DNA from: Salinisphaeraceae bacterium
GTDB lineage: Bacteria > Pseudomonadota > Gammaproteobacteria > Nevskiales > Salinisphaeraceae
DNA: 64,000 nt
Direction of reading: 5' to 3'
Assembly (NCBI GenBank): GCA_002683405.1
Contig: NYTH01000020.1
Coordinates: 1-64,000, forward strand
Shown here: positions 3,757 to 50,799 of the stretch, one piece after another
Numbering within the stretch: the first letter of the stretch is position 1
Layout: each line of letters begins with the position of its first letter
Position numbers and translations under genes: made by a program
The notes under the pieces: model-generated
Told to the model about the DNA's origin: nothing
The model's database searches: none
Seen by the model: the letters and a program-made list of their open reading frames with translations, nothing else

Positions 3757-3801
3757 TGATCTGAACTCCTGCCGTGAACCCGGCAACGCCGGGTTGATGA
3801 A

Positions 3802-6591
3802 TCACTTGATGATGCCCAGGCGGCGCGCCTCCGCTACGGCCTGGGCACGGCGGTGCACCGCCAGCTTCGAGTAGGTGCTTTTCAGGTACCACTTCACCGT
3901 GTCGACGCTGACGTTCAGCGTTCGGGCAATCTCCTTGTTGGAACAGCCCTTCCCCAGAAGGACCACGATCTGCTTCTCGCGAGTCTTGAGCGGCTCCACC
4001 AACACGGTCAGGGGGCGGCTGGTCGCGGCGTCGGCCGCCGGCAGACCGTCACTGAAGGCGTGGGCCCCGGCCGGAACGACGCTGTTCCCGACCGCTATGA
4101 GCCGGTTCATGTGGTAAGCAACCGATTCGGGCAATGCGTTTGCGGCGCTCTGCTGCCGGAGTTTGTCGCGCAGGCGCTGCAGCACATTCACCACCGCCGG
4201 GCCTTCGTCGACAAACGAACGAACCATGCCCTGCGAAGCGCCGAGCATGAGCGCTTCGGTGAGCCGCTGCTCGGCCTGTTCCTGGCGGCGCAGCGATTCC
4301 AGGCACAGCGTGATCCGGACCAGCAGGGTCACGGTGAACAGCATCCGCCCGTTGCTGCGGGCCTGCTCAAGCAGCCGATCAAGCAGGCCGAGGGCATCTT
4401 CAGTGCGGCCCAGCGCCTGCAGCACCCGACTGCGGGCGAGCGCGCGCATCGCCCAGATCTGGGCCTGTATGCCGTCGGTGCTGGACGGTGCGGGCGGCAG
4501 TTCGGGTGAATTTCGCTCGGCGTGGAGCAGGTCGCCGTCGAGCAGATAGCGCCGCACGCGCTCGCCGTCCACCGCGACAGCGAGACGCTCCAGACCCAGC
4601 CGACGCGCCGACTCCAGGCCTTCATCGAGCAGCCGGTGAGCGGCCGGGATATCCCCCTGCAGGCCGCGTAGCCGGGCCAGCGGTATGTAGATCGCCAGCG
4701 AAAAATCCACCACCCCACCGGTTGCGCCGAGCGCCAGACTTTCTTCTAGCAGGTTTTCGGCGTGCTCCAGATCGTTGTACTCGTAATTGATTTCGCCCCA
4801 CAGGGCGGCCGCCAGCCTGGCCGCGTGCGAATGCTGACCGACACTTTCGCGCGCGTAGTTCAGCGTTTCCTGAAAGTGCTTGGCGGCCACCCGCAAATTG
4901 CCCTGATAGGCGGCGGCCATGCCGGTAAAGCAGTGCCCGTAAATACCGCTGAACGGCCCTTCGGTGCCCATGTGGTGCGGCGTGGCCCAGCGCTGCAGCG
5001 TCCGGGCACCTTCAAAATCGAAACGGTGTATCCGCACAAAGCTGAGCACGTTGGCGGCCACGGCAAGCACCCAGTGCGGATACTCGACGTCGGCGTCGAG
5101 CAAGGGCGCGACCTGGGGCTCGACCTGCTCGATCTGGTCGGCGTAGATATCCAGGCAGGCCTGCAGGACCCGGAGCTCGGCGCGCAGCGCGACAAGCTGC
5201 TGGCGATCCTCGATGCCGGCCCCCTCGGTCAGTATGGCGTGCAGCTGGTCGATCACGGGAGCGGCCTTGTCGGCACGCTGGGTGAGGCAGTAGCACCACC
5301 CCAGGGCCATCTGCAGACGGGGCCGCTGGGCAATCGCCTCCGGCGGCAGTCGATCCATCAGATTCAGCAGCGTGGCCATGCGGGAGTGCTCGATGAGCGT
5401 CATGGCGCTGGTGTCGATGAGATTGACCGCGCGCTCCAGGTCACCCGCCTGCAGGGCGTGCGATACGGCATCGGACGTGTAGCCCTGCGCTTCGAACCAC
5501 TCGCTGGCCCGCAGGTGCAGCGCGGCGCTCTCGGCCGGCCGGTCCCGATTAAGGCGCTGCAGCAGGAAACTGGCGAACATGTGGTGGTAGCGAAACCACT
5601 GGCGCTGATCATCCAGCGGCCGGATGAACAGATCTTCCCGCTCAAGCTGTTCCAGCAGGCGCTGGCTGTCGTCCCGTCCGCTGACCGCGGCGCAGAGGTC
5701 GGCATTCAGCCGGTCGAGTATGGCGGTGCACAACAGGAAGTCACGCAGGTCCGGCGCCAGATTGGACAGCACGTTCTCCGCCAGATATTCGTTGATGGAA
5801 TGGTGCCGTCCGTCAAACGCCTTGATCAGGCCCTCCGGGTCGGGACTGTTGCGCAGCGTCAGCGAGGCCAGTTGCAGGGCCGCGACCCAGCCATCGGTGG
5901 TGCGAAACAGCAGGTCCAGGCTGTCTTCGGGCAGCTGCAGATCGTTCACATCGCTGAAGAAGTGGCGGGCTTCTTCGCTGTCGAAGCGCAGATCACGCGC
6001 CCGTATCTCGATGAACTGGTCCGCCACGCGCAGCTTGCCCAGCTGCAGCGGCGGCAGGCTGCGGCTGGTGAGCAGGAAATGCAGATTGGGCGGCGCATAG
6101 TTCAGCAGGAAATGCATGGCGTCCTGGATGCTGTCCGACTCGATCAGATGCCAGTCCTCCAGCACCAGGTACAGCTGCCGCTCCAGCGCGGCGGCGGCGT
6201 TGATCAGACCGCCGAGCACGAAACGGATGGCGCTGTCTGTCTGATTCTGCAGCGCATGGGCCAGGTCGAGATCGATTTCGGGCGCGATATCCCGAAAGGC
6301 TTCGAGCAGGTAGGAAAGAAACCGCGCGACGTCGTTGTCGTCCTGATCCAGGCTCAGCCAGGCGCTGCGGTCGCCGCGCGCCGCCAACTGACGGCGCCAC
6401 TGCACGGCCAGTGTGGTCTTGCCGTAGCCCGCCGGGGCGTGCAGCAGCGCCAGGCGTCGGCTGTCCAGGCCTTCCAGACGCTCGAGCAGATGCGGCCGCA
6501 GCACCAGCCCGCGCGTGTAGGCCGGCGCCTGCAGTTTCGTGGCTATCAGGCGGGTGTCTGGACGCCGAGCACTCCGCGTACGCACTGGCAT
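3802..6591 (-). CDS. MalT-type (LAL) LuxR-family ATP-dependent transcriptional regulator
   Basis: About 929 residues from the ATG at 6591, preceded by GAGGAGGAG. Signal-sensing STAND ATPase: the N-terminal NTPase has the Walker A motif HAPAGYGKTTLA near residue 50 and a Walker B-like LYLVLEDWHL. Then comes a long helical TPR-like region, and a C-terminal LuxR helix-turn-helix (KTREKQIVVLLGKGCSNKEI ... NVSVDTVKWYLKSTYSKL). The architecture and length match MalT/AlkS-type activators that bind an inducer. No autoinducer-binding domain is present, so this is not a quorum-sensing receptor. The likely target is the SDR downstream or genes outside the window. Confidence 0.93.
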   Translation of the reverse strand: MPVRTRSARRPDTRLIATKLQAPAYTRGLVLRPHLLERLEGLDSRRLALLHAPAGYGKTTLAVQWRRQLAARGDRSAWLSLDQDDNDVARFLSYLLEAFRDIAPEIDLDLAHALQNQTDSAIRFVLGGLINAAAALERQLYLVLEDWHLIESDSIQDAMHFLLNYAPPNLHFLLTSRSLPPLQLGKLRVADQFIEIRARDLRFDSEEARHFFSDVNDLQLPEDSLDLLFRTTDGWVAALQLASLTLRNSPDPEGLIKAFDGRHHSINEYLAENVLSNLAPDLRDFLLCTAILDRLNADLCAAVSGRDDSQRLLEQLEREDLFIRPLDDQRQWFRYHHMFASFLLQRLNRDRPAESAALHLRASEWFEAQGYTSDAVSHALQAGDLERAVNLIDTSAMTLIEHSRMATLLNLMDRLPPEAIAQRPRLQMALGWCYCLTQRADKAAPVIDQLHAILTEGAGIEDRQQLVALRAELRVLQACLDIYADQIEQVEPQVAPLLDADVEYPHWVLAVAANVLSFVRIHRFDFEGARTLQRWATPHHMGTEGPFSGIYGHCFTGMAAAYQGNLRVAAKHFQETLNYARESVGQHSHAARLAAALWGEINYEYNDLEHAENLLEESLALGATGGVVDFSLAIYIPLARLRGLQGDIPAAHRLLDEGLESARRLGLERLAVAVDGERVRRYLLDGDLLHAERNSPELPPAPSSTDGIQAQIWAMRALARSRVLQALGRTEDALGLLDRLLEQARSNGRMLFTVTLLVRITLCLESLRRQEQAEQRLTEALMLGASQGMVRSFVDEGPAVVNVLQRLRDKLRQQSAANALPESVAYHMNRLIAVGNSVVPAGAHAFSDGLPAADAATSRPLTVLVEPLKTREKQIVVLLGKGCSNKEIARTLNVSVDTVKWYLKSTYSKLAVHRRAQAVAEARRLGIIK

Positions 6592-6681
6592 GTTCTCCTC
6601 CTCGCGCTTGACCGGCCTGTCTTGCGCAGGACCGTGTCGGGCCCGAAAAAGATACACGCCACGCGGCGCGCGCACTACGGG

Positions 6682-7470
6682 TCAGCCGGCAGACCCGGCC
6701 CCGAGCTGCTCTGCCAGCCGATCGCGCAGCGCGTAGTCGGTCTGATCCAGATGCATGGGCGTAATGGACACCGCCTTGTGATACACCGCGGTCAGGTCCG
6801 TGCCGTCCTGCATCTCGCCATCCCGGTAGTTCAGCTTGATCCAGTAGTAAGGCACGTCCCGCCCGTCTATTCGGCGTTCGGGTATGAAGCTGCCCGGTGG
6901 CCGGTTGCCCTGCCGGGTAATGCGCATGCCCGACACCTCGTCGGGCGGGCAGTCGGGAAAGTTGACGTTGTAAAAGCGCGCGTCCGGCCAGGGCTGGCCG
7001 AGCAGAAAATCCAGCACCGCCGGGCAGTGCCGGCGCGCCGTGTCCCAGTATTTCTCGCTGCCGAACGTGAATACCAGGCTCAGCGCCACGGACTTCATGC
7101 CCAGCGTCAGACCCTCCATGGCTGCGGCCGCGGTGCCCGAATAGCTGACGTCCTCGCCCAGATTTGCGCCCCTGTTGATCCCCGACAGCAGCACGTCGGG
7201 CGGCCGATCCTGCATCAGTTCGTGATAGGCCAGCACCACGCAGTCGGTCGGCGTGCCCCGCACCGCAAAATGCCGATCATCCACCTGCCGGACGCGCACA
7301 GGCACCGTGATCGACAGCGATCTGGCTGCGCCGGACCGCTCGTCGTCGGGCGCGACCACCCAGACGTCGTCAGTGAACTCACGCACCACTTCTTCAAGCA
7401 CCCGGATGCCGGGCGCATCGATTCCGTCGTCGTTGACCAGTAAAACCCGCTGGCCGCGCAATGACTGCAT
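6682..7470 (-). CDS. surE: 5'/3'-nucleotidase SurE
   Basis: Cytoplasmic metal-dependent nucleoside monophosphatase linked to stationary-phase survival. 262 residues. The N-terminal metal site VNDDGIDAPG carries Asp14-Asp15. SGINRGANLGEDVSYSGT supplies further family-defining residues, and NVNFPDCP and ITRQGN are also typical. The start ATG at 7470 has GGGGAAA upstream. In many Proteobacteria surE precedes pcm, nlpD or rpoS; here it is followed by the LuxR gene, so the usual context is absent. Divergent from the cluster starting at 7633. Confidence 0.95.
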   Translation of the reverse strand: MQSLRGQRVLLVNDDGIDAPGIRVLEEVVREFTDDVWVVAPDDERSGAARSLSITVPVRVRQVDDRHFAVRGTPTDCVVLAYHELMQDRPPDVLLSGINRGANLGEDVSYSGTAAAAMEGLTLGMKSVALSLVFTFGSEKYWDTARRHCPAVLDFLLGQPWPDARFYNVNFPDCPPDEVSGMRITRQGNRPPGSFIPERRIDGRDVPYYWIKLNYRDGEMQDGTDLTAVYHKAVSITPMHLDQTDYALRDRLAEQLGAGSAG

Positions 7471-7632: not shown

Positions 7633-8382
7633 ATGGCGAAGCTTTACGTCGATGTCGACAAATACGGTGACGAGCACGCCTCGCCCGTGGTCGAGGCCTT
7701 CCACAGCGCCATACGTGATCTCGTGCGAAAGCGTCTGGACGAGTCGGGCTGCGGCTGGAGCGAATTCGTGTTTGGCAAGAGCCATGAGCTGATCACGCAG
7801 GACGACATGGCCGCCGTGGAACAGCAACTGCTGGATGCGGGCCACAAATTCGACTGGTCCGCCGCCATATCGCCGCGGGAGCGGCCGGATGCCTACAAGG
7901 CCAGCGCGGGCACCTCAGATGAAGATCTCAAGACTTTCTGTTTCGAGCACCCCGACGCCCCGACTGCCGAAGCAGACGGCGACGGCCGCGCGCTGCGGGG
8001 CGTGGGCGACAACGTCGCGAAATACCCGCAGAACGTGACCGGGACCGCTCGCTACGTGCGGTCCTCCGACCGTGTGCTGAAGTGGCTGTCCGACGGCGTG
8101 CCCGACAACACCATCGCCGTAATCGACGATTCCGGCGGCACCCTGACCGCACCGATTCTGGAACAGTTCAAGGGCGTGATCTGCGCCGGCGGCACCGTCC
8201 GGTCGCACCTGGGCATTCTCACCCGCGAATACGGCATCCCCTGCTTCATGAACGCCAAGGTCACCGGCATTTACGAGGGCGACACCGTCGAGATGGAATG
8301 CAGTGCGGCGGCCAAGCCTGCGGAGTTCTATCAGCAGGGCAAGGAACAGACCGCCAACGTCTGGCGGCACGGTAAAGGCTAA
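7633..8382 (+). CDS. Free-standing PEP-utilising-enzyme mobile (phosphohistidine) domain protein
   Basis: 249 residues, with GGAGGAG just upstream of the ATG. The C-terminal half (about 145-230) is the swivelling phosphohistidine domain of PEP synthase, PPDK and rifampicin phosphotransferase: ITVIDD-like strand (TIAVIDDSGGTLTAP), VICAGGTVRSHLGILTRE with the candidate phospho-accepting His192, and YGIPCFMNAKV. The N-terminal half (1-140) matches nothing I recognise. It has no ATP-grasp or PEP-binding barrel, so it would need a partner, probably the PPDK-like protein at 12563. The arrangement recalls phenylphosphate synthase, whose PEP-synthase parts are also split among subunits. First gene of the cluster. 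Confidence 0.75.
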   Translation: MAKLYVDVDKYGDEHASPVVEAFHSAIRDLVRKRLDESGCGWSEFVFGKSHELITQDDMAAVEQQLLDAGHKFDWSAAISPRERPDAYKASAGTSDEDLKTFCFEHPDAPTAEADGDGRALRGVGDNVAKYPQNVTGTARYVRSSDRVLKWLSDGVPDNTIAVIDDSGGTLTAPILEQFKGVICAGGTVRSHLGILTREYGIPCFMNAKVTGIYEGDTVEMECSAAAKPAEFYQQGKEQTANVWRHGKG

Positions 8383-8383
8383 T

Positions 8384-8540
8384 AAACCACAGAGACGCAG
8401 AGCGCACAGAGAAAAGCAAGCAAATTTATAACCACAAAGCACACAAAGAGCACAAAGGTGGAAACGAAATACTTTGTGTCCTTAGTGCCTTTGTGGTTCT
8501 AAAAGCCCTTTCTCTGTGGCCTCTATGCCTTTAGTGGTTA
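8384..8540. repeat. Palindromic intergenic element, copy 1 (CACAGAG/CCACAAAG family)
   Basis: The gap between 7633 and 8567 is filled by a nested inverted repeat. Outer arms are AACCACAGAG... and ...TTTAGTGGTT. Inner arms are AACCACAAAGCACACAAAG and its approximate complement CTTTGTGTCC...CTTTGTGGTT. AT-richer than its surroundings. Similar elements lie at 11605, 12436, 33717 and 36078. Confidence 0.8.
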
Positions 8541-8566
8541 ATCTTCAATAGGTACCGGATACAACC

Positions 8567-10129
8567 ATGGCAAAACCGCAACTTTCCTACGCGCAGCTGC
8601 TGGAAACCAACAACATGCTGCAGACCAACGGCGATGAGTGCTACTGGCTCTGCGTCACCCGCACGGTGCAGGAGTCCAAGCTGTTTCCGGTGCCCAGTTA
8701 CATGCTGCTGTCCTATCTCAACTGCTTCTACCGCTACCCTGGCCTGCTGGCGAAGATTGAGGAGAAAATGAGCGCCGAGGAAATCGGCGACCGCATGCGC
8801 AATATGGGCGTGAAGATCGCCAACCCGTCCATGGGCTGGGGCCTGACCAACTTCTACCTGCTTGGCCGCGAGTGGCTCATTGCTGCCGGCCTGCTCCGGC
8901 CGCAGGACGCGGCCGACGACGTCATGTATGTCATGGACTTCTGGAAGCGCTACCAGCTGGCCTGGCACCGCAACGACGGCCACCTGTTCAACAAGGAGTT
9001 CGACCATCGCGGCCAGTTCCTGCCCGAGCGGCAGCTGCAGGTCTTTCACGCCGACCTGTACGACTGCCAGACCGGCGACGAGCTGCACGAGGCAGCCCAT
9101 CAGTTCCTGGCCGCGGCTTCCCAGTACTGCTTCCTGATCGCCTGCGAGTCACGCCTGTGTCTGCACACGCAGGGGCCGTACAAGATTGACGACCAGCGCG
9201 AGATGATCGTGCGCGATCATTTCGACCTGTCGGAATGCAGCCTGCCCTGGCTTGACGGGGTCGGCGCGGAAGTGCCGTACAACAACCTGACGGTCACGAT
9301 GGCGGTGGACGACTGCCACTTCCACATCTGCGATGACTGGGGCAGCACCGAGGCTGAACCCGAGTTCAAGGCAGACAAGCTGTCCGGCATTGGCCTGTAT
9401 ACCTCCGACATGCTGTCGGAAGGCTATATCCCGGTGGGCATGAACTCCCGCGAGGAACTGACGCAGACCTTTCACGAGCTCGCCGGCAACATCAAGGACG
9501 CTACCGCCAAGCTCTGGCAGCGGATTGCCGGGTGGTCTCGCGACCAGATGATGGATGCCGGCGCGATCACCTACTACGCCTGCATCAAGGATCTGGCGCA
9601 TGTGGCCGGCGTGTACGACGTCGATGACTGGATGAAGATCGACCATCGCGCCGATCGGTTCCGGCCGCTGTTCAACGACGAGTACGGACGCGATTGCCTG
9701 GGCGAGATGGTGGGCCTGATCTCCCTGCCCCAGCAGCAGATCAGCGACTACTCGATGATGATGCACTCCAACGCACCCAAGCGCGTGTACACGCCCATCC
9801 CCTACGACATTCTGAAAACCGGCGATTACGTGCCCAGCGTGGGGGATGTCGAGCGCGGCATTACCTATCTTCCGGAAAAGGAAGATCGTTACAACACCAC
9901 CCAGGGCACGCTCACGCTGAGTGAATTCAACCGCAAGGCGGCCGATTTCGTGCCGGAGACGCTGCAGAACGACCGCAACCTGCTGTGTGAAACCTGGGTG
10001 AAATTTCACTACGACAGTCCGCAGGCCGATGATCTGTACAAGGTGCATCAGAAGCACTCGCGCCTGCTCAAGGATCGGGGAGCGGGGCTGCGCCGCGCGG
10101 ACATCGAGAAAATCCGGAGTCAGGAGTAG
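8567..10129 (+). CDS. Conserved-looking 520-residue protein of unknown family
   Basis: 520 residues, cytoplasmic by appearance (no signal peptide or membrane segments). It begins MAKPQLSYAQLLETNN and is rich in Trp, Tyr, His and acidic residues. Possible metal-binding stretches are DDCHFHICDD (near 245) and the Cys pair CYWLC (near 26), but no standard domain signature is visible. It lies between the mobile-domain gene and the ligase, and its stop is 3 bases before the next start, so it is translationally linked to the ligase. Its size and place suggest it could be the substrate-binding subunit of a split phosphotransferase. This is inference; I do not recognise the family. Confidence 0.8.
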   Translation: MAKPQLSYAQLLETNNMLQTNGDECYWLCVTRTVQESKLFPVPSYMLLSYLNCFYRYPGLLAKIEEKMSAEEIGDRMRNMGVKIANPSMGWGLTNFYLLGREWLIAAGLLRPQDAADDVMYVMDFWKRYQLAWHRNDGHLFNKEFDHRGQFLPERQLQVFHADLYDCQTGDELHEAAHQFLAAASQYCFLIACESRLCLHTQGPYKIDDQREMIVRDHFDLSECSLPWLDGVGAEVPYNNLTVTMAVDDCHFHICDDWGSTEAEPEFKADKLSGIGLYTSDMLSEGYIPVGMNSREELTQTFHELAGNIKDATAKLWQRIAGWSRDQMMDAGAITYYACIKDLAHVAGVYDVDDWMKIDHRADRFRPLFNDEYGRDCLGEMVGLISLPQQQISDYSMMMHSNAPKRVYTPIPYDILKTGDYVPSVGDVERGITYLPEKEDRYNTTQGTLTLSEFNRKAADFVPETLQNDRNLLCETWVKFHYDSPQADDLYKVHQKHSRLLKDRGAGLRRADIEKIRSQE

Positions 10130-10132
10130 CTC

Positions 10133-11599
10133 ATGCAAATAGGCGCACTCATCCGACGCGCCGCCCTGCACTACGGCGACAAACCCTGTCTGACCGAAGG
10201 GGGCACGACCTGGAGTTTCCGCGACTTCGATGCCGCCACCGACCGGCTGGGCAACGCGCTGCTCGGCCTGGGTCTGGCGCCCGGCGACCGCGTGGGCGTG
10301 GCCATGCCCAACGGCATCGATTGTCTGGTGGCCTACTACGCCCTGGCCAAGAACGGCCTGGTCCGGGTGGGTCTGAATACCCGGGAAACGCTCAACGAGC
10401 ATCGCTACAAGCTGAAGGAATCCGGCAGCCGGGCCGTGATTCACGACGATATCGACGGCATTGACGCCGAGGTTGAAACAGGCATCGGGCGGCAGCAGTT
10501 GCGCGAGCTGATCGACACCGGCCCCCAGACCACTTGCGCCGTGGACCGCGCGCTGGACGAGCCCTATCGGCTGGGTTTTACCGGGGGCACGACCGGTCAG
10601 CCCAAGGGGGTGACGCTGACCACGCGCGGCGAACTCTGCGAGATATCGGCCTTTCTGATGGAGCTCATGCCGGACATGCGCGAGGGCGACACCTTCCTGC
10701 ACGCCGGTCCGGTCGCGCACGCGTCGGGCGCATTCTTTCTGCCCTCACTGGCGCGGGGCGCGCACGGCATCATCATGAAGAAGTTCGATGCCGAGCAGTT
10801 CGTCGATCTGGCTGAACAGTCGGAGGCGAAACTCACCTTCCTCGTGCCCACCATGCTCGCAATGATTCTGGAGGTGCCGCGGGTTGGCGAGGCCGATCTG
10901 AAATTCCGGCGCATCGCCTATGGCGCGTCACCAATCGCCGATGCGCTGCTGCGTCGCGCGGAAGACCGTTTCGGCAAGATATTCGCGCAGGTCTACGGCC
11001 AGGCCGAGTCGCCCATGGTGATCACCTATCTGGCGCCGGAGCACCACGACCGCAGCGGCTCCTGCGGTCGTCCCTTCACCATTGCCGAGGTCGCGGTGGT
11101 CGACGATGAGGACCGGTTTCTACCCGCCGGTGAGGTCGGCGAAATCGTCTGTCGCGGTCCCATGACCATGGCCCGCTACTGGAACCGCCCGGAGGCCACC
11201 GAAAAGGCCTTCCGCAACGGCTGGCTGCACACGGGCGATCTGGGGCGTATGGATGACGACGGCTTCTTCTATCTGGTGGACCGCAAGAACGACATGCTTA
11301 TTTCCGGCGGTTTCAACGTCTACCCGCGCGAGGTGGAGGACGTTCTGATGAGCTTTGAGGGCGTGGTTGAAGCGGCCGTGGTCGGCCTGCCCGATGAGAA
11401 ATGGGGCGACCGCGTACATGCCGTGGTGGCGGGCCGCGATGGTCTGGATACCGACGCGCTGATGGCCTATGCCCGGGAGAAGCTGTCCGGCTACAAGCGG
11501 CCCAAGGCCATCGAGGTCTGGGACGAAATCCCGAAATCCGGCGCCAACAAGCTCCTGCGTCGCAAGGTGCGTGACGCCATTATAGAGCGCGACGAGTAA
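10133..11599 (+). CDS. AMP-forming acyl-CoA synthetase / carboxylate ligase
   Basis: 488 residues. AGGAG lies eight bases before the ATG. Adenylate-forming (ANL) family: P-loop FTGGTTGQPKGVTLT near 145, adenylate motif YGQAESP near 285, HTGDLG with LVDRKNDMLISGGFNVYP near 365-395, and the catalytic lysine region KSGANKLLRRK near 470. The enzyme should activate a carboxylic acid to an acyl-AMP and then, most often, to acyl-CoA. The substrate cannot be read from the sequence. Slightly shorter than typical long-chain fatty-acyl-CoA ligases, closer to aryl or medium-chain members. The cluster suggests it acts on an unusual substrate or product of the neighbouring phosphotransfer and carboxyl-transfer proteins. 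Confidence 0.9.
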   Translation: MQIGALIRRAALHYGDKPCLTEGGTTWSFRDFDAATDRLGNALLGLGLAPGDRVGVAMPNGIDCLVAYYALAKNGLVRVGLNTRETLNEHRYKLKESGSRAVIHDDIDGIDAEVETGIGRQQLRELIDTGPQTTCAVDRALDEPYRLGFTGGTTGQPKGVTLTTRGELCEISAFLMELMPDMREGDTFLHAGPVAHASGAFFLPSLARGAHGIIMKKFDAEQFVDLAEQSEAKLTFLVPTMLAMILEVPRVGEADLKFRRIAYGASPIADALLRRAEDRFGKIFAQVYGQAESPMVITYLAPEHHDRSGSCGRPFTIAEVAVVDDEDRFLPAGEVGEIVCRGPMTMARYWNRPEATEKAFRNGWLHTGDLGRMDDDGFFYLVDRKNDMLISGGFNVYPREVEDVLMSFEGVVEAAVVGLPDEKWGDRVHAVVAGRDGLDTDALMAYAREKLSGYKRPKAIEVWDEIPKSGANKLLRRKVRDAIIERDE

Positions 11600-11604
11600 A
11601 GCGT

Positions 11605-11757
11605 CGCAGAGGCGCAGAGAACACAGAGAAAAAAATCATGAAAACCACAAAGGGCACAGTTAGGAAAGGTCAAACCTTTGTGTTCTTGGTGCCTTTGTGG
11701 TCAAGCATTCTTCCCGCCTTTCTCTGTGTTCTCTGTGTTCTCTGTGTCTCTGAGGCT
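11605..11757. repeat. Palindromic intergenic element, copy 2
   Basis: Fills the gap between the ligase and the 200-residue gene. Left arm CGCAGAGGCGCAGAGAACAC with AACCACAAAGGGCACAG. Right arm CTTTGTGTTCTTGGTGCC...TTTGTGG and a triplicated TTCTCTGTG. Same family as copy 1. Confidence 0.8.
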
Positions 11758-11781
11758 AATGTTTGAAGAAGTAACAACGCA

Positions 11782-12384
11782 ATGAACGAAAAGCATCTTG
11801 TACTACATGGCCTGGCCATCAAGAAACACGGCACGCCGGAGGCAGTCGCCGAACTGATGGGCCTGAATGAGGATCGGGCCAGGCAGCTCATGGACGAGGC
11901 CGTGGCCAATGGTCGGGTGAACGAGGCCGGTGGCAAATACATGCTCACGCCGATGGCGCAGATGAGCCTGAAAAGTGCCTACTCCAAGGAGTACGCCGAC
12001 CCGCGGGGCAGCGAGAATTTCCTCCAGGCCTATCAGAATTTCGAGCGCATCAACGTCGACCTCAAGCAGATCATCACCGACTGGCAGACCCTGGACGTCG
12101 GCGGCGACAAAGTGCCCAACGATCATTCCAATTCCGAATACGACGAGCAGGTCATCGATTCGCTCGGCGAGCTCCACGAGCGCGTCGAGCCCGTGCTTGA
12201 TCAGCTGGCGGGCGGCCTGTCCCGGCTGGCGATCTACAAGGACAAGCTGCTGGCTGCATTGGAGAAGGCGGAAGACGGCGATATCCAGTGGGTCAGCGAC
12301 GCGAAGATCGATTCCTACCACACGGTCTGGTTCGAGCTGCACGAAGACCTGCTGCGCATTACCGGCAACGAACGCGACGAATGA
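11782..12384 (+). CDS. Small helical protein of unknown function (phosphotransfer-cluster member)
   Basis: 200 residues, no signal peptide. The N-terminal 60 residues look like a winged-helix-type fold (LHGLAIKKHGTPEAVAELMGLNEDRARQLMDEAVANGRV ending in a YMLTP strand, given here in parts). The rest is helical and acidic, with DHSNSEYDEQVIDSL and WVSDAKIDSYHTVWFELHE. I see no catalytic signature. It lies between two palindromic elements and just before the PPDK-like gene, so it may be an accessory or regulatory subunit of that enzyme rather than a DNA-binding repressor. Function unknown. Confidence 0.75.
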   Translation: MNEKHLVLHGLAIKKHGTPEAVAELMGLNEDRARQLMDEAVANGRVNEAGGKYMLTPMAQMSLKSAYSKEYADPRGSENFLQAYQNFERINVDLKQIITDWQTLDVGGDKVPNDHSNSEYDEQVIDSLGELHERVEPVLDQLAGGLSRLAIYKDKLLAALEKAEDGDIQWVSDAKIDSYHTVWFELHEDLLRITGNERDE

Positions 12385-12435
12385 CGTTGCAGGCCACATC
12401 GAGCGAATGGAGTGGTCGAGCAAACATGAACTTGC

Positions 12436-12506
12436 AACCACAAAGACACAAGGGACACCAAGCTGAGAAGCGACGGGACTTTGTGCTCTTTGTGCCTTTC
12501 TGGTTA
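12436..12506. repeat. Palindromic intergenic element, copy 3 (short form)
   Basis: Within the 178-base gap before the PPDK-like gene. Arms AACCACAAAGACACAAGGG and ...CTTTGTGCTCTTTGTGCC...TGGTT. It is the inner hairpin alone; the outer CACAGAG arms are missing. Confidence 0.7.
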
Positions 12507-12562
12507 ATGCACCGTTTTGGCGCCTGACAACGCTGAACACAACATGATCGCTGAGCTCCGAG

Positions 12563-14311
12563 ATGCCTGAACAATGGACAATCCGCCTCGACGGCAGCGA
12601 GCTGCCCGACAAGCAGCTCATCGGCGGCAAGGCCTGGTCGCTGGCGCGCATGCGTTCGCTGGGTTTGCCCGTGCCACCCGCTTTTGTCGTGACGACCCGG
12701 GCCTGCAAGGCCTATCAGGATCAGCAGGATTTCCCGGACGGGCTGATCGACGAAATCCGCGAGGGCGTGCATTGGCTCGAGGCCCAGAGCGGCCGCTGCT
12801 TCGGCAGCGGGCCGGAGGCGCTGCTGCTTTCGATTCGGTCCGGCGCACCCATCTCCATGCCGGGGATGATGGACACCGTACTCAACCTCGGCATCAATGC
12901 CGACACGGCCAGCGCACTCGCTGAAGAAACTGGCGATAGCCGTTTCGCGACCGATACTTATCGACGCTTTCTAGAAATGTACGCGAAGATTGTACTGAAG
13001 GCGGCGCCACCCGAGCTGGACCCGGACGCGGGCCCCGACGCCTGGCTGGAAGCAGTAAACGCGGCCGCGCCGAGCCCGGTTCCGGATACGCTGGAAGAGC
13101 GTCTCATGGCGGCCATTCGCGCCGTGTTCGACTCCTGGGGCAATCGCCGCGCCCGACGCTACCGCAAGCACAACAATATTCCGGATGACCTGGGCACCGC
13201 CGTGGTCGTTCAGGCCATGGTGTTCGGCAACCTGGACGACAACAGCGGTACGGGCGTGCTCTTTTCCCGAAACCCCTTGACCGGCGAGCGTGAGCCCTAC
13301 GGCGAGTACCTCACCCGGGCACAGGGCGAGGACGTGGTGTCTGGCGAACACACGCCCGACAAGCTGGAGGCAATGCAGAGCCGTCAGCCCGAGGCGCACG
13401 CCAAGCTGCTGGAGGCCGCCCGGGTGCTGGAGGATGAGAACGGCGATGTTCAGGACATCGAGTTTACGGTCCAGAAAGGCGAGCTTTTCCTGCTGCAATC
13501 CCGCACCGCCAAACGCGCGCCGGCTGCCGCGGTGCGCATTGCCGTGGACATGCAGCGCGACGGGATCATCAGCGCCGATCAGGCGCTGGCCCGCGTGACG
13601 TCAACTCAGGCCCGGGCCCTGCTCGCGCCTCGCCTGGCCGAGGGCGCTGCGGCCGCCGCGAGCGTGCTGGCCAGTGGCCAGGGTGCCTGCCCCGGCGTGG
13701 GGACCGGCCGGATCGTGACGGACTCGGACGAGGCTGAAACCCGCGCGGAAGGCGGTGAGGCCGTGGTGCTGGCGCGCAGGTCAACCAGCCCGGAAGACGT
13801 CCACGGCATGCTGGCCGCCCGGGCCATCGCCACGGAAACCGGCGGCTCCACTTCGCACGCGGCCGTGGTTTCACGCGCGCTGGGGCGACCCTGCGTGGTC
13901 GGCTGCGGCGAAGCCTCGCTGCTGGCGCATGCGGGCGAAACCGTCACCGTGGACGGCGATGCCGGGAAGGTTTATGCCGGTGCACTCGAGGTGGTCGTTC
14001 CGGACGAGCGCGATGATCCGGCGCTGGTCGAGCTGCTGGCCTGGGCCGTGGACCGCGCCCCGATTCGCGTGATCCGACCCGATGAGGCGCAGGGCCTGGA
14101 CGCGCTCGACCTGGACAGCATCGATGGCGGCGAAGATCCGGAGCGGCTACCCGAGCTGCTGGCAGGCGCCTCGGCCGCGCGTGGCGGCGCGATTGCCAGT
14201 GATGCCGGCGTCGCGGCGGCACTGAACGCCGGGGTAAGCGCCATCGTGGCGGAGCCCACGCTCCCGGTCATGCTGGCCGCGCTGCATCAAAGCCGGGCCC
14301 GCAATGGCTAG
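12563..14311 (+). CDS. PPDK/PEP-synthase-like phosphotransferase lacking the PEP-binding domain
   Basis: 582 residues against roughly 800-900 for full pyruvate phosphate dikinase. The N-terminal ATP-grasp part is clear: GGKAWSLARMRSLGLPVPPAF near 23, RSGAPISMPGMMDTVLNLG near 93, and GTGVLFSRNPLTGER near 231. A phosphohistidine domain follows, ETGGSTSHAAVVSRALGRPC with His432. The C-terminal 115 residues are Ala-rich and are not the PEP/pyruvate TIM barrel. It should therefore autophosphorylate from ATP on His432 and pass phosphate to something other than pyruvate, as rifampicin phosphotransferase and phenylphosphate synthase do. It probably works with the mobile-domain protein (7633). The acceptor is unknown. 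Confidence 0.85.
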   Translation: MPEQWTIRLDGSELPDKQLIGGKAWSLARMRSLGLPVPPAFVVTTRACKAYQDQQDFPDGLIDEIREGVHWLEAQSGRCFGSGPEALLLSIRSGAPISMPGMMDTVLNLGINADTASALAEETGDSRFATDTYRRFLEMYAKIVLKAAPPELDPDAGPDAWLEAVNAAAPSPVPDTLEERLMAAIRAVFDSWGNRRARRYRKHNNIPDDLGTAVVVQAMVFGNLDDNSGTGVLFSRNPLTGEREPYGEYLTRAQGEDVVSGEHTPDKLEAMQSRQPEAHAKLLEAARVLEDENGDVQDIEFTVQKGELFLLQSRTAKRAPAAAVRIAVDMQRDGIISADQALARVTSTQARALLAPRLAEGAAAAASVLASGQGACPGVGTGRIVTDSDEAETRAEGGEAVVLARRSTSPEDVHGMLAARAIATETGGSTSHAAVVSRALGRPCVVGCGEASLLAHAGETVTVDGDAGKVYAGALEVVVPDERDDPALVELLAWAVDRAPIRVIRPDEAQGLDALDLDSIDGGEDPERLPELLAGASAARGGAIASDAGVAAALNAGVSAIVAEPTLPVMLAALHQSRARNG

Positions 14312-14340
14312 GCATCCAATTCCGACTTCCCTACGCACAC

Positions 14341-14898
14341 ATGGACCCGACCATGGATAAGCAATCAGACAATCCGAATCTCGCGCGAGACGTTGAAGCC
14401 CTGCTGGAACAGTTCGACCAGTCCGAGTGGGCCGAAATGGAGCTGGAAATCGACGGGCTGCACCTTTATGTATCCCGGGATGGTAACGGCCAGCCCCGCT
14501 TTGGCCGCACGGCCGCATCCGGCGGACAGGCGGCCGCGGCTACATCACCGCCACCGGCAGCGGCGCGGCCCTCGGCAAAACCGGCGGCCGCCAAGCCTGC
14601 GGCTGTATCGGCTGCCTCGGCGGCCGACGCCAGTGCCGAGATCCCCGAGGGCATGGAGGTCATTCGCGCCTCGAATGTGGGCACCTTCTATCGCTCGCCG
14701 AAACCCGGCGAGGCGCCCTATGTGGACGTGGGCGATACCGTGACGCCGGATACCGAAGTGTGCCTGATCGAGGTGATGAAACTGTTCTCGCCGCTCACGG
14801 CGGGCGTCGCGGGCACCATTGCCGAAGTACTGATCGAGGACGCCCAGATGGTCGAGTACGACCAGCCTATTTTTCTTGTCGACCCCAGCCAGGACTGA
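14341..14898 (+). CDS. Biotin carboxyl carrier protein (AccB-like)
   Basis: 185 residues. AccB-like layout: N-terminal helical and strand part (ELEIDGLHLYVSR), a Pro/Ala-rich flexible linker (about 60-100), then a C-terminal biotinyl domain with GTFYRSPKPGE and the biotinylation site EVMKLFSP, where the Lys is expected to carry biotin. The ATG at 14341 or the in-frame one at 14353 could be the start; neither has a strong ribosome-binding site. It is followed 6 bases later by the carboxyltransferase-like gene. No biotin carboxylase (AccC) is encoded in the window, so carboxylation of the biotin would need the chromosomal AccC, or the pair does only transfer or decarboxylation. Confidence 0.9.
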   Translation: MDPTMDKQSDNPNLARDVEALLEQFDQSEWAEMELEIDGLHLYVSRDGNGQPRFGRTAASGGQAAAATSPPPAAARPSAKPAAAKPAAVSAASAADASAEIPEGMEVIRASNVGTFYRSPKPGEAPYVDVGDTVTPDTEVCLIEVMKLFSPLTAGVAGTIAEVLIEDAQMVEYDQPIFLVDPSQD

Positions 14899-14904
14899 TT
14901 CGCC

Positions 14905-16359
14905 ATGGCGCATATCGAACTGCTTGACGAAACGCTGCGCGACGGCCAGCAAAGCCTCTGGGGCATGCGCATGCAGGCCGGCATGGCCCTGCCGGTCACG
15001 CCGATACTCGACCAGACGGGGTTTCGCGTCATCGACCTGACCGGCTCCTCGATGTTCGAGGTGCTTATCAAGTATTGCCGGGAAAACCCCTGGGAAGGTC
15101 TTGATCTGCTGGTCGAATCCATGCCGAACACGCCCATTCGGGGCGGCATGCGCTCCAACGCCTCGGTGACCTTCGGCGTGACGCCGGATGCGCTGATGGA
15201 CGTCTGGATGCGGCAGCTCAACGAGCACGGCTGCCGGTCATTCTGGGTATACGACGTGCTGTTCAACATTGACAAGATGCACCGGCTCGCCGGCGTGGCC
15301 AAGCAGTACGGTTCGGAAGTGGCCGGCGCGATCATGTTCACGCTGTCGCCGGTGCATACCGACGCCTACTACGCCGACAAGGCGGACAAGCTCTCGGCCT
15401 GCGACGATATCGATACGCTGCTGCTCTACGACACCGCCGGCGTGCTAGACAAGGAGCGAATGCAGACGCTGATCCCGGCCATCCGGGACAAGGCGCGAGG
15501 CAAACCCATCGAGTTCCACTCGAACAACATTCTCGGGCTGTCCGGCAAGGCCTACTGCGACGCCATCGAACTGGGCATCAATATTCTTCATACGGCCAGC
15601 CGGCCGATGGCCAACTCGTCGTCGGTACCGTCCACCGAATCGATGGTGCGAAACCTGGAAATGCTGGGCCACACGCACGACATCGACAGCTCCAAACTGG
15701 CGCCGGTGGCCGAGCACTTCGAAGCCGTGGGCAAGGCGGCTGGCTTCCCGGTCAACCAGCACAACGAATACAACGTGCTCGCCTCGCAGCATCAGATCCC
15801 CGGCGGCATGCTCGGCACCATGCGCGAGCAGCTCAAGCAGCACAATCTGTCGCATCGCATCGACGAGGTACTCGAAGAAACGGCCCGGGTTCGCAAGGAG
15901 CTGGGCTATCCGGGCATGGCGACACCCTTCTCCCAGCTCGTGGGGACGCAGGCGGTCGTGAACACAGTCACCGGCAAGCGCTACGAGACCATCCCCGACG
16001 AGGTCATCCAGTACGTGGCCGGCTATTACGGCGAGCCGGCCGGCCCCGTCGACCCGGACATAAAAGACCGGATACTCAACCATCATCGCGCCCGACACGT
16101 GCTTGCCCACCCGCCGGAGGACCCGAGCCTGTCCGATCTGCGCAAGCAGTACGGCACCCAGGATGACGACGAGTTGATCCTGCGCGCGCTGATTCCGGAA
16201 GCCGATCTGGAAAAAATGCGCGCCGCCGGCCCGGTGAAGCGAGACTTTCCGCTGCTGTCCTCGCCCGAGCTGACCCTGGCCCAGCGCCTGCTGAAAGTCG
16301 CGAAATCGCCCGCGGTTCAGATAGAGTCCGCGAAACTCAACCTGTCCCTGCGCCGATGA
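14905..16359 (+). CDS. Carboxyltransferase-like TIM-barrel protein (OadA / pyruvate carboxylase B family) with altered metal site
   Basis: 484 residues. The fold is that of the carboxyltransferase domain of oxaloacetate decarboxylase alpha or pyruvate carboxylase: LLDETLRDGQQSL (Asp8), PWEGLDLL, FNIDKMH, DTAGVL, IPGGMLGTM, and the C-terminal helical PYC_OADA-type segment. The usual metal site is Asp, a carbamylated Lys (KDMAG) and His-x-His. Here the Lys position is Tyr175 (LYDTAG) and the HxH is His205-Ser-Asn207. Biotin-dependent transfer to pyruvate in the standard way is thus doubtful. It has no biotin domain of its own; the carrier is the preceding gene. It overlaps the next gene by four bases (ATGA). 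Confidence 0.85.
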   Translation: MAHIELLDETLRDGQQSLWGMRMQAGMALPVTPILDQTGFRVIDLTGSSMFEVLIKYCRENPWEGLDLLVESMPNTPIRGGMRSNASVTFGVTPDALMDVWMRQLNEHGCRSFWVYDVLFNIDKMHRLAGVAKQYGSEVAGAIMFTLSPVHTDAYYADKADKLSACDDIDTLLLYDTAGVLDKERMQTLIPAIRDKARGKPIEFHSNNILGLSGKAYCDAIELGINILHTASRPMANSSSVPSTESMVRNLEMLGHTHDIDSSKLAPVAEHFEAVGKAAGFPVNQHNEYNVLASQHQIPGGMLGTMREQLKQHNLSHRIDEVLEETARVRKELGYPGMATPFSQLVGTQAVVNTVTGKRYETIPDEVIQYVAGYYGEPAGPVDPDIKDRILNHHRARHVLAHPPEDPSLSDLRKQYGTQDDDELILRALIPEADLEKMRAAGPVKRDFPLLSSPELTLAQRLLKVAKSPAVQIESAKLNLSLRR

Positions 16360-17162
16360 ACGATTTCACCGACCAGATCCGCGACCTGCGCGAGGAAGGC
16401 GACGCGCTCTACGAGACGTTGAAGCAATTGCCGGATGACGCCTGGGATAGCCCCACGCAATTCAAGGGCTGGACGCCCAACGACGTCATCGCCCATCTGT
16501 ACTTCACCGACGTACAGGGACTGGCCAGCCTGGAAAGCCGACAAAAATTCCAGGAGATGGTGGCGCCACTGGTCGCCGCGATGAAGCGGGACGATTTCAT
16601 CGGCGAAACGCGCCGCTGGAGCGGTGATCTGGCCGGTCCGACGCTGCGCGAGCGCTGGCATCTGCACTTCCACAAGATGTGCGACACCCTGGCCGCCAGT
16701 AACCCGGCGACGCGCATGGCCTGGTACGGCCCCGACATGGGTCTGCGCATGTTCGCCAGCTCCCGGCAGATGGAAACCTGGGCGCACGGTCAGGAGATAT
16801 ACGATCTGCTGGGTCTGCAGCGGGACAACAGCGATCGCATCCGGCATGTGTGCGTCATGGGCGTAAAGACTTTCGGCTGGACGTACATCAACCGCGGTGA
16901 GCCGGTGCCCGAACCCGCCCCGCATATCCGCCTGACCGCTCCTTCCGGGGCGGTATGGGAATGGAACGAGCCTCAGGACGATAACCGCGTGGAAGGACCG
17001 GCGGTCGGCTTCTGCCAGGTCGTCACGCAGACGCGCAACGCAGCCGAAGTGGGCATCACCACGACGGGTGATACGGCTGCGCACTGGATGCAGGTCGCGC
17101 AGTGTTTTGCCGGCCCGCCTACCACGCCTCCACCGCCCGGCCAGAGAGGTCCGGCGCGGTAG
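16356..17162 (+). CDS. TIGR03084-type metal-binding protein (DinB/maleylpyruvate isomerase-like fold)
   Basis: 268 residues, starting inside the stop of the carboxyltransferase-like gene (ATGA overlap), so translationally coupled. The pattern fits the TIGR03084 family, related to the mycothiol-dependent maleylpyruvate isomerase N-terminal fold: N-terminal helix DQIRDLREEGDALYETL, TPNDVIAHLYFTD with a metal-type His near 46, and METWAHGQEIYDLLG near 145 with the second conserved His. The C-terminal domain is beta-rich, with a Pro-rich tail. Family members have no firmly established reaction; several are predicted thiol-dependent or metal-dependent enzymes. Last gene of the cluster. Confidence 0.75.
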   Translation: MNDFTDQIRDLREEGDALYETLKQLPDDAWDSPTQFKGWTPNDVIAHLYFTDVQGLASLESRQKFQEMVAPLVAAMKRDDFIGETRRWSGDLAGPTLRERWHLHFHKMCDTLAASNPATRMAWYGPDMGLRMFASSRQMETWAHGQEIYDLLGLQRDNSDRIRHVCVMGVKTFGWTYINRGEPVPEPAPHIRLTAPSGAVWEWNEPQDDNRVEGPAVGFCQVVTQTRNAAEVGITTTGDTAAHWMQVAQCFAGPPTTPPPPGQRGPAR

Positions 17163-17783: not shown

Positions 17784-20700
17784 ATGCGCATTCATCCTCG
17801 CAAGTCGACCATTCTGGCACTGGCCTGTCTGTTCGCTTTATCCGGCTGCGGGGGCGGCGGTGGGGGTTCGTCCTCCGGCAGCATACCGGGCGGCAGCCCG
17901 GACCAGCCGGATACAGGCGGCGAGACGGGGGGCGAAACCGGCGGCGATACGACGGCGGGCCGCGTTTTCAGTATCGAGCCGGGCGAGAACGCCTCGCGCG
18001 ACGCGCTCGTGGCCGCGGTCGATGCGCGCCCCGGCGATGTCATCGAATTTGCCTGCGGCTTTTACGACATGCAGTCCACCATGCTCATCACCGCCACCGA
18101 GGACGTCACCGTCCGCGGCGGCGGACGCGACTGCACGGTGCTGTCCTTTCGCAACAACAACGCCCCGGAAGGCATTCTGGTGGACAACGTGCGGGGCATT
18201 TTCATCAGTGATCTGACCGTCGCCGACACTGACGGCAACGCCTTCGAGCTACGGTCCGTGGACCACGCCGAGCTGCGCAATGTGCGCGCTTTCTGGTCTT
18301 CCGACGGCGGGCGCGACAGCCCCGATCCGGTCACGGCCGGCAACTACCAGGACGGACGGCTGGATGTGGCCTGCACGCAGCCCGCCACGCTGGACCCGTC
18401 CGTACCGGAAAACCAGGGGCGGCCGGGCACGATATCGCCGGACTACATCGTCAGTCAGAGAGCCGGGCGCTACGGCATCTATCCGGTCAAATCGCGCAAC
18501 GTCCTGGTGGACAACGCCGAATCCATCGGCGCCTCCGATGCGGGCATTTATGTGGGCCAGACAAACACCGCCATCATCCGCAACAGCCGCGCGGCCCACA
18601 ACGTATTCGGGTTCGAAATCGAGAACGTGAAGGGCGGCGAATACGCCAACAACCTGGCCGAATGCAACACGGGCGGCTTCCTGATCTACGACCTCGACAA
18701 TCTGACGCAGTACGGTGAACGCTCGCGCATGTACGGCAATACGGCGCGCATGAACAACACCTACAACTTCACCGAAGGCGGATTCGTGGCCAACGTGCCG
18801 CCGGGTAGCGGGATGATCACGCTCGCCTATGATCGGATCGACATCTTCGACAACGTCTTCGAGGACAACAACACCGGCGGCATCATCCACGCCAGCTACG
18901 AACTGTTCCCCGAGGGCGCCGGGCGACCCAGCGACCGCAAGATCGATTTCTACACCGAGGGCGTGAAGATATTCCGCAACCGGTTCAGCAACAATGGTAA
19001 TGCCCTGCCCGCGCCCACCACGACCGATCTGCAGAACCAGGATGTGGCGCGGCTGCTGCCCACCCTCGTCGGCCTGAAGACGCAGGCGGGTTGCCTGCTC
19101 GACCCTACCCGCTGCCCCGCCGGCGTGAACTACCGCGGCGCTCATATCGTCTGGGATGGCCTGCTGGACCCTTACGATGCGGATTGCGACTATCCCACGG
19201 TCGACGGGACCGACAGCGGCGACCCGGTCCCGGCCACGGCCCGGGGCAAGCCTGACTACACCGGCGAACATGCGCAGCCGGCCTGCCGCTACAACGCCTA
19301 CAAATTCGATACCGACGCGCCGAACAATCCGCGTATCGCGCCGCGATGGTTCGCCTCCTGCATCGAGCAGAACAACGACTTTTCCAACGACAGCGTCACC
19401 TACACCAACTTCAACGGTACCAAGGGCATCGAGGCCGCGCTGATTGCACTCGACAATCCCGTCGGGCTGCTTGATCCGGCCGGGCTGCAATCGATTCTGG
19501 GAGGGCTGCCGCAGTTCGCCGCCGACCTGGACTGGTCGGCCCACGATTGCCAGACCGCCTATGGGGAGACGCTGGCGAATCTCGAGCCGGTCGTCATCCC
19601 GCCCTTCGAGCGCAGCGGCGATATCAATCCCGCGCCTTCCGAAGCCGAAGTGGCCGCTCTGTGCGAGGTGGATCACACGCCCGGAGTAGTGAACTTCCCG
19701 GCGGCGGCGGTCAACTGCCCCCGGCTGGACCAGTACAACCTGTTCGCCCAGGCCGATGACCCCACGAGCACGCCCAACGCGAACGGCAGCCTCGACAACG
19801 CCGCACAGGGCCTGCCCTTCGTGCTCAACACCAAGCTTTTCTCCGATTATTCGGTGAAATACCGGGTGCTTTTTCTGCCGCCCAATGCCGACGGCAGCGC
19901 CACGCAGCCGGGCACCTACAGCGCGCCCGGCGCGAGCGACCCCAACGCCACACTCATCTTCCCGGTGGGCAGCATCGTGGCCAAGACGTTCTCGTTTCCG
20001 AGCAGCGGCGTGGAGAACCACGTGGAAACCCGGCTGCTGATCAAGCGCGACCTGGGAAATAACCGCGTGCGCTGGGTGGGGTTGCCCTATGTCTGGGGCA
20101 CCGAGAATGGCCAGCGGGTGGCGCGCCTTCAGCCCGAAGGCGCGGAGCGCGCCGTGAGCTGGGACTACGTGGATGTGGAAACCGGCGCAACGCTCAGCGG
20201 CAGCACCGACAGCTACAGCGTGCCCAACGCCAACCAGTGCATCAGCTGTCATGCCAACCAGGACCGCGAGAGCGGCGCACCGCCCATCGGCACGAAGGTC
20301 CGTAACCTCAACCGGGCCTACCGCTCCGAATCCATGGTTCAGACGGCTCAGTCGGACCATCCGGTAGCCAACCAGAACCAGATCGCCTATCTGTGCGACA
20401 ACGGTTACCTGATGGGTTGTCCGTCGGACATCAGCGTGGACGCGAATACGGGCTACGCCACCAACCTGGAGCGCTCACCCATGTTCAAAACGCCCGGTGA
20501 CGGCGGACAGACACCCGGATCGGATGCCGATATCGAAGCCCGCGCCCGCGCCTGGCTGGAGGTCAACTGCCAGCACTGCCACAACCCGCAGGGATTTGCG
20601 GCCAATACGGGCTATTACCTGGACGTCTTCCGGGCGGTGAATACCAGCTACGGCATCTGCAAGGGGCCCACGGCCACCGGCGCGGAAGGCAGCGGCGGCC

Positions 20701-21844: not shown

Positions 21845-21880
21845 GATGTGCATGCTTGCAACTGAGCCGTAGGACGTGAG

Positions 21881-21904
21881 GCGGAGGGCCAGGCGGCCCT
21901 CCGC
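21881..21904 (-). terminator. Hairpin between frmA and fghA
   Basis: Perfect 10-bp stem GCGGAGGGCC/GGCCCTCCGC with the loop AGGC (21891-21894). No T-run follows, so partial termination or transcript stabilisation is more likely than a full stop. Confidence 0.5.
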
Positions 21905-21922
21905 TCCCGAATCTCACGCGGG

Positions 21923-23912
<1,990 letters not shown>

Positions 23913-23913
<1 letters not shown>

Positions 23914-24707: not shown

Positions 24708-24739
24708 TGCATTCCCCTTCTTGTCTTGCGGCCTTGCCG

Positions 24740-26233: not shown

Positions 26234-26252
26234 AGGTGATTCTCCGAATAAG

Positions 26253-35989: not shown

Positions 35990-36077
35990 ATCTCGCTCCT
36001 CTTCAACATTGTTCTAGCGGGCAATCAGGGCCCCGCCGATGAATACTGCTCGACCGTTCTTTCGTGTAGAAAAAAAT

Positions 36078-36217
36078 GCGCTACAGAGGCACAGAGAACA
36101 CAGAGCCAATCCTGCTGCATGACTGACATGGCCCGAATAAGGACTGCACTCCGTCATGGTTTAATGCCCTCCGCCGCATATTTCGCGATCTCCGTGCCTC
36201 TGCGCCTCTGTGGCGTC
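36078..36217. repeat. Palindromic intergenic element, copy 5
   Basis: Between dmpM and dmpN. Left arm GCGCTACAGAGGCACAGAGA with ACACAGAGCC. Right arm CTCCGTGCCTCTGCGCCTCT followed by GTGGCG. The middle 50 or so bases are unrelated. Outer-arm form of the family, without the CCACAAAG core. Confidence 0.75.
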
Positions 36218-36227
36218 ATCTTCAAAT

Positions 36228-36512: not shown

Positions 36513-36539
36513 GACTGTCTCGCTCCTTCCTCGTGCCTG

Positions 36540-37541: not shown

Positions 37542-37599
37542 GTCGGTATCTCCTCTGCTGCCGGCTTGTGCCGGTCTGTAGGACGCTGCGAGCCGCCGA

Positions 37600-48084: not shown

Positions 48085-50799
<2,715 letters not shown>

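Follow-up and report, generated by a model that had tools for sequence, protein, structure and literature searches.

A gene cluster of a Salinisphaeraceae bacterium predicted to couple a split dikinase to biotin-dependent carboxylation

The window analyzed here, 64,000 nucleotides of contig NYTH01000020.1 from a Salinisphaeraceae bacterium (assembly GCA_002683405.1; a genome of 3.7 Mb in 58 contigs), carries a gene cluster that probably encodes a route in which an organic substrate is phosphorylated, carboxylated, dephosphorylated, ligated to CoA and cleaved. The likeliest substrate is a methyl ketone with an additional hydroxyl or enolisable oxygen. An earlier note on this DNA had described eight same-strand genes at 7633-17162; all eight open reading frames were recovered on the plus strand at the same coordinates, and their domain labels are supported by Pfam and NCBIfam searches. 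They encode a lone swivel (phosphohistidine) subunit of 249 residues (7633-8382), a 520-residue protein (8567-10129), an AMP-forming acyl-CoA ligase (10133-11599), a 200-residue protein (11782-12384), a truncated PPDK of the VadK type (12563-14311, hereafter the short PPDK), a biotin carboxyl carrier protein (BCCP; 14341-14898), a carboxyltransferase (CT; 14905-16359) and a TIGR03084-family protein (16356-17162). The set also includes a gene outside these eight, that of a divergent SurE-type phosphatase on the minus strand (6682-7470). Phosphorylation of an organic substrate with ATP, followed by carboxylation and CoA ligation, had already been suggested in the note and remains the best reading. 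The UbiD-type phenylphosphate carboxylase route, which it had set aside, is likewise rejected, as no UbiD-type gene lies in the block.

A scan of GTDB genomes yielded 159 loci encoding relatives of the 520-residue protein, 80 of which were kept for counts, many stopping at a contig edge. Among these 80 loci, the lone swivel gene is found in 74, the 200-residue gene in 65 and the short PPDK gene in 42. All 42 loci with the short PPDK contain both the swivel and 200-residue genes, in addition to BCCP (38/42) and CT (35/42), a grouping that exceeds chance. The block is spread over alpha-, beta- and gammaproteobacteria and Actinobacteria (four classes), usually in the order of swivel, 520-residue protein, ligase, 200-residue protein, PPDK, BCCP, AccC (the biotin carboxylase, BC), CT and thiolase, with SurE nearby; the swivel and 520-residue genes adjoin each other in most loci. 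Plasmids of Rhodococcus oxybenzonivorans S2-17 and R. pyridinivorans P23 bear the same block together with a Tyr phosphatase and an OB-fold/thiolase pair. In an order-level neighbourhood sample of 61 related genomes, four possess the 520-residue gene; the short PPDK and 200-residue genes are each present in three of these four but absent from the remaining 57 (Fisher p=1.1e-4). Co-conservation of the block, as raised in the earlier note, is thus borne out for most of the genes. The exception is the TIGR03084-family protein (280 bits against a cut-off of 248; its gene overlaps that of the CT by 4 bp), which has no homologue in any related locus and is rejected as a pathway member in favor of a passenger.

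Fusion, co-conservation and invariant phosphohistidines join the swivel, 520-residue and 200-residue proteins to one another. The swivel protein consists of the PEP-utilizers mobile domain alone (PF00391, E 3e-7; PEP, phosphoenolpyruvate), with a candidate phosphohistidine, His192, in the segment CAGGTVRSHLGILTREYGIP; His192, Arg190 and Ser191 are invariant in 79 of 79 homologues. The short PPDK combines an ATP-grasp module with its own phosphohistidine domain (PPDK_N plus PEP-utilizers; 706 bits against a cut-off of 456 for NF004531, a family of short PPDKs), whose His432 is invariant in 48/48, and has no PEP/pyruvate barrel. It aligns to the ATP-binding and His domains of PPDK, and its closest solved relatives are PPDKs, not PEP synthases. 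The 520-residue protein belongs to no Pfam or NCBIfam family; its AlphaFold2 model (pLDDT 93.5, pTM 0.93) has no match in the PDB at E<=0.001 (best E 0.24), and its profile gave one non-significant match against PDB sequences, among which the swivel and 200-residue profiles matched nothing significantly. By analogy with RPH and HpeH, the 520-residue protein is proposed to act as the substrate-binding acceptor subunit. The 200-residue protein, with no family above curated cut-offs, was modeled (pLDDT 96) as a winged-helix N-terminal part, with weak matches to winged helix-turn-helix-like folds, followed by a helical part, and is proposed to be the partner of the short PPDK. A 793-residue protein of Rhodococcus opacus B4 fuses a swivel (residues 19-105, E 4e-13), a 520-residue-like segment (228-548, E 3e-15; hhalign 98.6%) and a 200-residue-like segment (603-790, E 3e-13); a Tyr phosphatase gene adjoins the fusion gene, and a PPDK gene lies farther off. 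Moreover, R. oxybenzonivorans has a 542-residue fusion of swivel and 520-residue-like segments.

The organization of the kinase genes varies in a manner that suggests an ATP-side unit (PPDK and 200-residue protein) and a substrate-side unit (swivel and 520-residue protein), because the 200-residue gene recurs beside the short PPDK gene without a close 520-residue relative, as on replicons of Diaphorobacter, Streptomyces, Rhodococcus and Mycobacterium avium. A search of 198 actinobacterial genomes gave 44 matches to the 200-residue protein, 19 of them <=2.5 kb from a listed PPDK-like match. In one genome (G050), the 200-residue/PPDK pair is located ~355 kb from the swivel/520-residue pair on the same contig. 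A clade of 18 loci (support 1.0) has the swivel, 520-residue and 200-residue genes without PPDK or BCCP, usually accompanied by a Tyr phosphatase. Most of these genomes (12 of the 15 tested) carry a short PPDK elsewhere, which supports the modularity of the kinase and fits a short PPDK shared in trans with the PPDK-less swivel-acceptor clade; the assemblies of the remaining three may be incomplete. About ten genomes, identified by contig accession, hold both cluster types. On a plasmid of Methylibium petroleiphilum PM1 (L113:7669-10558), 520-residue-like, small swivel and 200-residue-like proteins are encoded beside methylmalonyl-CoA-mutase-type genes, which suggests a further role for this type of kinase.

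Among characterized enzymes, HpeH unites its swivel with a RIF-binding-like domain, and the ATP-grasp is supplied by a second protein, HpeI (PMC12167813). As in HpeHI, CreHI, PpsAB and RPH, a swivel phosphohistidine domain would shuttle between the ATP-grasp and substrate domains, and the catalytic swivel histidine corresponds to His192. In HpeHI, CreHI and PpsAB, however, the swivel shares its chain with the RIF-binding-like domain, whereas here it is a separate gene product and the substrate subunit has another fold. Compared to HpeH, the swivel has its glycine pair one residue farther from the histidine and an Arg at position -2. The profile of the 520-residue protein aligned to an HpeH-like kinase with an hhalign probability of 0.1%, and only the swivel and ATP-grasp segments align, so that the 520-residue protein is rejected as an HpeH homologue. 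The likeness to split kinases of the PEP-synthase type drawn in the earlier note therefore holds for the swivel and ATP-grasp domains but does not extend to the 520-residue subunit, and the split dikinase of this cluster is probably new. A 25-hydroxysteroid kinase, considered as a precedent for tertiary-alcohol phosphorylation, is described as phosphotransferase-family-like (PMC8449060); no link to it was found, and it was discarded.

The closest counterpart of the ATP side is VadK (Rv1127c) of M. tuberculosis, which autophosphorylates with ATP on His422 and whose solubility is improved by its operon partner Rv1126c (PMC13400623). VadK and the short PPDK are both truncated PPDKs with an ATP-grasp module and a catalytic His but no PEP domain. 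Rv1126c may correspond to the 200-residue protein, the sole hint being an M. avium plasmid pair in which a 200-residue homologue lies beside a short PPDK. VadK differs in that the literature presents it as a histidine kinase with a regulatory role; it has no known small-molecule acceptor, and no carboxylase genes are reported alongside. By extension, the PPDK, the swivel and their partners might here relay phosphate between proteins so as to control the carboxylase or the ligase, and not phosphorylate a small molecule. Such a role has been proposed for VadK, which is reported to interact with methylcitrate-cycle enzymes (PMC13400623), and would agree with the winged-helix domain of the 200-residue subunit. 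We regard such a relay as quite improbable: a kinase acting on small molecules, for which Hpe, CreHI and PpsAB are precedents (PMC12167813), fits the conserved 520-residue subunit, the single-chain swivel fusion and the repeated presence of phosphatases.

The carboxylase part is represented by BCCP and CT. Like the BCCP of acetyl-CoA carboxylase, the window BCCP has an AccB-type domain (TIGR00531, 116.9 against a cut-off of 115.2) and a biotin site, in which the biotinyl Lys147 of the EVMK motif is kept in 48/48. Its identity is 39-49% to most cluster BCCPs versus 35% to the AccB of its own genome. The CT shares the barrel and the PYC_OADA domain (E 1.9e-32) with OadA, 5S and PycB, and aligns over its full length with solved OadA and 5S. 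At the metal site, however, the carbamylated Lys is replaced by Tyr175, and the second His of the HxH motif by Asn207 (HxN). Every proteobacterial and Nocardioides CT from these clusters shows the same change; Glu/Asn occupies the two positions in two Rhodococcus copies, and the canonical Lys and HxH are retained in CTs of bisphenol-A degraders. Were the CT an ordinary pyruvate carboxylase B subunit or oxaloacetate decarboxylase beside unrelated genes, its matches to PYC_OADA and solved OadA would be accounted for; yet it reaches the NCBIfam cut-off of none of these families, has neither the Lys nor the intact HxH of the metal site, and is tied to kinase genes across phyla. On the metal ligands and the different gene partners, this identity is rejected as extremely improbable. 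Two plasmids, of Sphingomonas bisphenolicum AO1 and the bisphenol-A degrader Pseudomonas putida YC-AE1 (L108 and L112), carry a Tm-1-like ATP-binding gene before BCCP, BC, CT and HAD phosphatase genes.

AccC is encoded in the cluster of every relative that has both BCCP and CT, and the window is the sole locus with both but without it. The absence of AccC reported in the earlier note is thus correct for this cluster, but is not a trait of the system. A dedicated AccC elsewhere in the same genome was sought and rejected, the best matches standing at 46-47% and none being orthologous. The genome does contain a stand-alone 458-residue AccC, other biotin carboxylases and many thiolases. The AccC and thiolase steps must therefore be supplied in trans or have been lost in the window organism; carboxylation there needs AccC from elsewhere, and function is possible, though not assured, because the stand-alone AccC and the other biotin carboxylases exist. 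Loss would point to degeneration or repurposing in this genome, such that the kinase, ligase and phosphatase work alone or the CT serves as a decarboxylase. Such a history would agree with the missing AccC, with the unrelated gene after the CT, and with the repeats that fill three operon gaps of 178-184 bp (8383-8566, 11600-11781 and 12385-12562). The repeats are of the interspersed inverted type (ACCACAGAG.../AACCACAAAG...), dozens of which recur in similar form across the genome, and the first gap folds as a long hairpin (-62.8 kcal/mol, z -6.9). Nevertheless, all open reading frames are intact, the biotin Lys, both histidines and the CT motifs are kept, and the stand-alone AccC and thiolases are available, which makes degeneration quite unlikely. 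Two further loci (L121 and L123) encode CT, AccB and AccC but no kinase, their neighbours being an acetoacetate decarboxylase gene or genes for a 3-oxoacid CoA-transferase and a thiolase; they are possible kinase-free biotin ketone carboxylases.

The type of product is indicated by the downstream enzymes. The AMP ligase (PF00501/PF13193; AMP-binding E 6e-71) shows 64-77% identity across the majority of full clusters, and its closest solved relatives are FadD8 and feruloyl-CoA synthetase; we propose it to be a beta-keto acid:CoA ligase. Clusters with CT have the ligase and a thiolase, except for two (L089 and L095) that have neither and instead encode a beta-keto-acid cleavage enzyme (BKACE), which in L095 scores 498 bits against a cut-off of 430 for the 3,5-dioxohexanoate-cleaving family. 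Since ligase plus thiolase and BKACE both consume beta-keto acids, a beta-keto acid is supported as the product of the cluster, by two exchange cases that fall short of statistical proof; the pattern is imperfect, as L050 has an SCP-type thiolase but no ligase homologue. A beta-keto acid fits the carboxylation of a methyl ketone. In addition, DUF1329/MMPL-type transport genes beside four related clusters hint at a hydrophobic substrate.

OadA-type CTs use enolisable methyl ketones such as pyruvate as carboxylation substrates, and PEP synthase phosphorylates pyruvate at its enol oxygen. A variant of the scheme can be drawn from this chemistry, in which the kinase would place phosphate on the enol oxygen of a simple ketone, carboxylation would expel it, and SurE would be accessory. 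The similarity of the short PPDK to PPDK, an enol-phosphate maker, and the OadA-type CT both accord with it. A leaving phosphate would, however, need no phosphatase, and the clusters repeatedly encode one, drawn from either of two unrelated families. SurE (PF01975; NF001490, 323.5 bits in the window against a cut-off of 233) is present in 31 related loci, and phosphatase families interchange between clusters, SurE with Tyr phosphatase, and HAD in Hpe-like clusters. Furthermore, in the Hpe pathway the phosphate survives carboxylation (PMC9618137). The enol-phosphate variant is accordingly judged unlikely.

The Hpe pathway, which acts on lignin ketones, provides the nearest precedent for the order of steps. 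Acetovanillone or 4-hydroxyacetophenone is phosphorylated by HpeHI, and the biotin enzyme HpeCBA carboxylates the phosphorylated form only; HpeD then dephosphorylates the product, after which a CoA ester is made and cleaved (PMC9618137). The set, hpeHICBADEF of Rhodococcus rhodochrous GD02, has homologues in acvABCDEF of Sphingobium SYK-6 and xccABC of Aromatoleum EbN1 (PMC9618137). The window cluster follows the same chemistry order of swivel-His dikinase, BCCP with BC and CT, phosphatase, AMP ligase and beta-ketoacyl-CoA cleavage. It differs in the kinase, where homology is limited to the swivel and ATP-grasp domains, the swivel is a separate gene and the ATP module is of the PPDK rather than the PEP-synthase type; in the downstream enzymes, SurE replacing the HAD phosphatase and thiolase or BKACE the HpeF hydrolase; and in the altered CT metal site. 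BCCP, BC and CT, encoded together in Hpe, are not so in the window, where AccC is missing. An Hpe-ordered cluster of Rhizobium leguminosarum encodes a PEP-utilizing enzyme, a PEP/pyruvate-binding protein, BCCP, BC, CT, a HAD hydrolase and an acetoacetate-CoA ligase; its CT, a comparator that is not HpeB itself, is 40.5% identical to the window CT over 491 columns. The statement of the earlier note that it knew of no described pathway with this gene set thus needs qualification: a pathway of the same logic is known in Hpe/Acv/Xcc (PMC9618137), with a different kinase, and searches limited to open-licence papers found no description of the exact gene set.

From gene content, conservation, fusion, invariant residues, the altered metal site, co-occurrence and the exchange of cleavage enzymes and phosphatases, we infer the following reactions, subunit roles, direction of phosphate flow and ketone substrate. 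The short PPDK, with the 200-residue subunit, would move a phosphate of ATP onto its own histidine, a half-reaction shown for M. tuberculosis VadK (PMC13400623). The phosphate would then pass to the lone swivel, directly or by a His-to-His relay, and on to the substrate held by the 520-residue subunit, a path deduced from fusion and co-conservation. A biotin carboxylase, in the window genome one from elsewhere, would charge BCCP, and the CT would carboxylate the carbon beside the carbonyl to give a beta-keto acid. SurE would take off the phosphate, and the AMP ligase would form a beta-ketoacyl-CoA to be cleaved with CoA by a thiolase, which is in-cluster in relatives and elsewhere in this genome. 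Several points weigh against this route. The substrate and steps are proposed from the genes; the fold of the 520-residue protein offers no functional clue; the CT chemistry may differ because the canonical metal-site Lys and one His are absent; the window cluster has neither AccC nor thiolase in cis; the kinase cartridge persists in some relatives in the absence of BCCP and AccC; and SurE and short-chain dehydrogenases/reductases (SDRs) are common families.

More tentatively, the kinase may belong to a new class of modular dikinases for small molecules, in which one ATP-charging unit (short PPDK plus 200-residue protein) serves interchangeable swivel-acceptor cartridges with an undescribed acceptor fold and feeds a CT without the usual metal site; in that case, VadK might supply the ATP side of a comparable system whose acceptor has gone unrecognised, and not act primarily as a regulatory kinase. 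For VadK-type truncated PPDKs, none of which has a known small-molecule substrate, this is a new hypothesis as to the acceptor, and it suggests a substrate subunit without a known structural relative. The proposed route would assign a concrete and testable pathway to a gene block that is widespread but "hypothetical", and would extend phosphorylation-dependent ketone carboxylation past the few Hpe-type clusters, and the Tyr/Asn change raises the question of how the CT works.

Beyond SurE on the minus strand lie a MalT/LuxR-type regulator (3802-6675; PRK04841, 447 bits, under its cut-off of 537) and an SDR oxidoreductase (2965-3786; PF13561). Homologues of the regulator at 31-39% adjoin three sphingomonad clusters, and a LuxR regulator also adjoins the Rhodococcus cluster, which makes it a possible controller of the cluster. 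SDRs at 25-41% identity are encoded close to many related loci, and the SDR is a possible accessory, on weak evidence because SDRs are common.

Elsewhere in the window, a B12-dependent methionine synthase (48085-50799) matches pterin, B12 and activation domains but gave no match to a homocysteine domain. A 1051-residue protein (17784-20939) contains a right-handed beta-helix domain and a TIGR03806 "SO2930 diheme cytochrome" domain. A single minus-strand run (20987-26338) encodes an esterase, a Zn-alcohol dehydrogenase, two FAA hydrolases and an aldehyde dehydrogenase. A second catabolic block (34379-41736) comprises a multicomponent phenol/alkene hydroxylase with a YHS domain (34379-35989), a DmpR/XylR-type activator (38939-40606) and a Rieske oxygenase (40603-41736).

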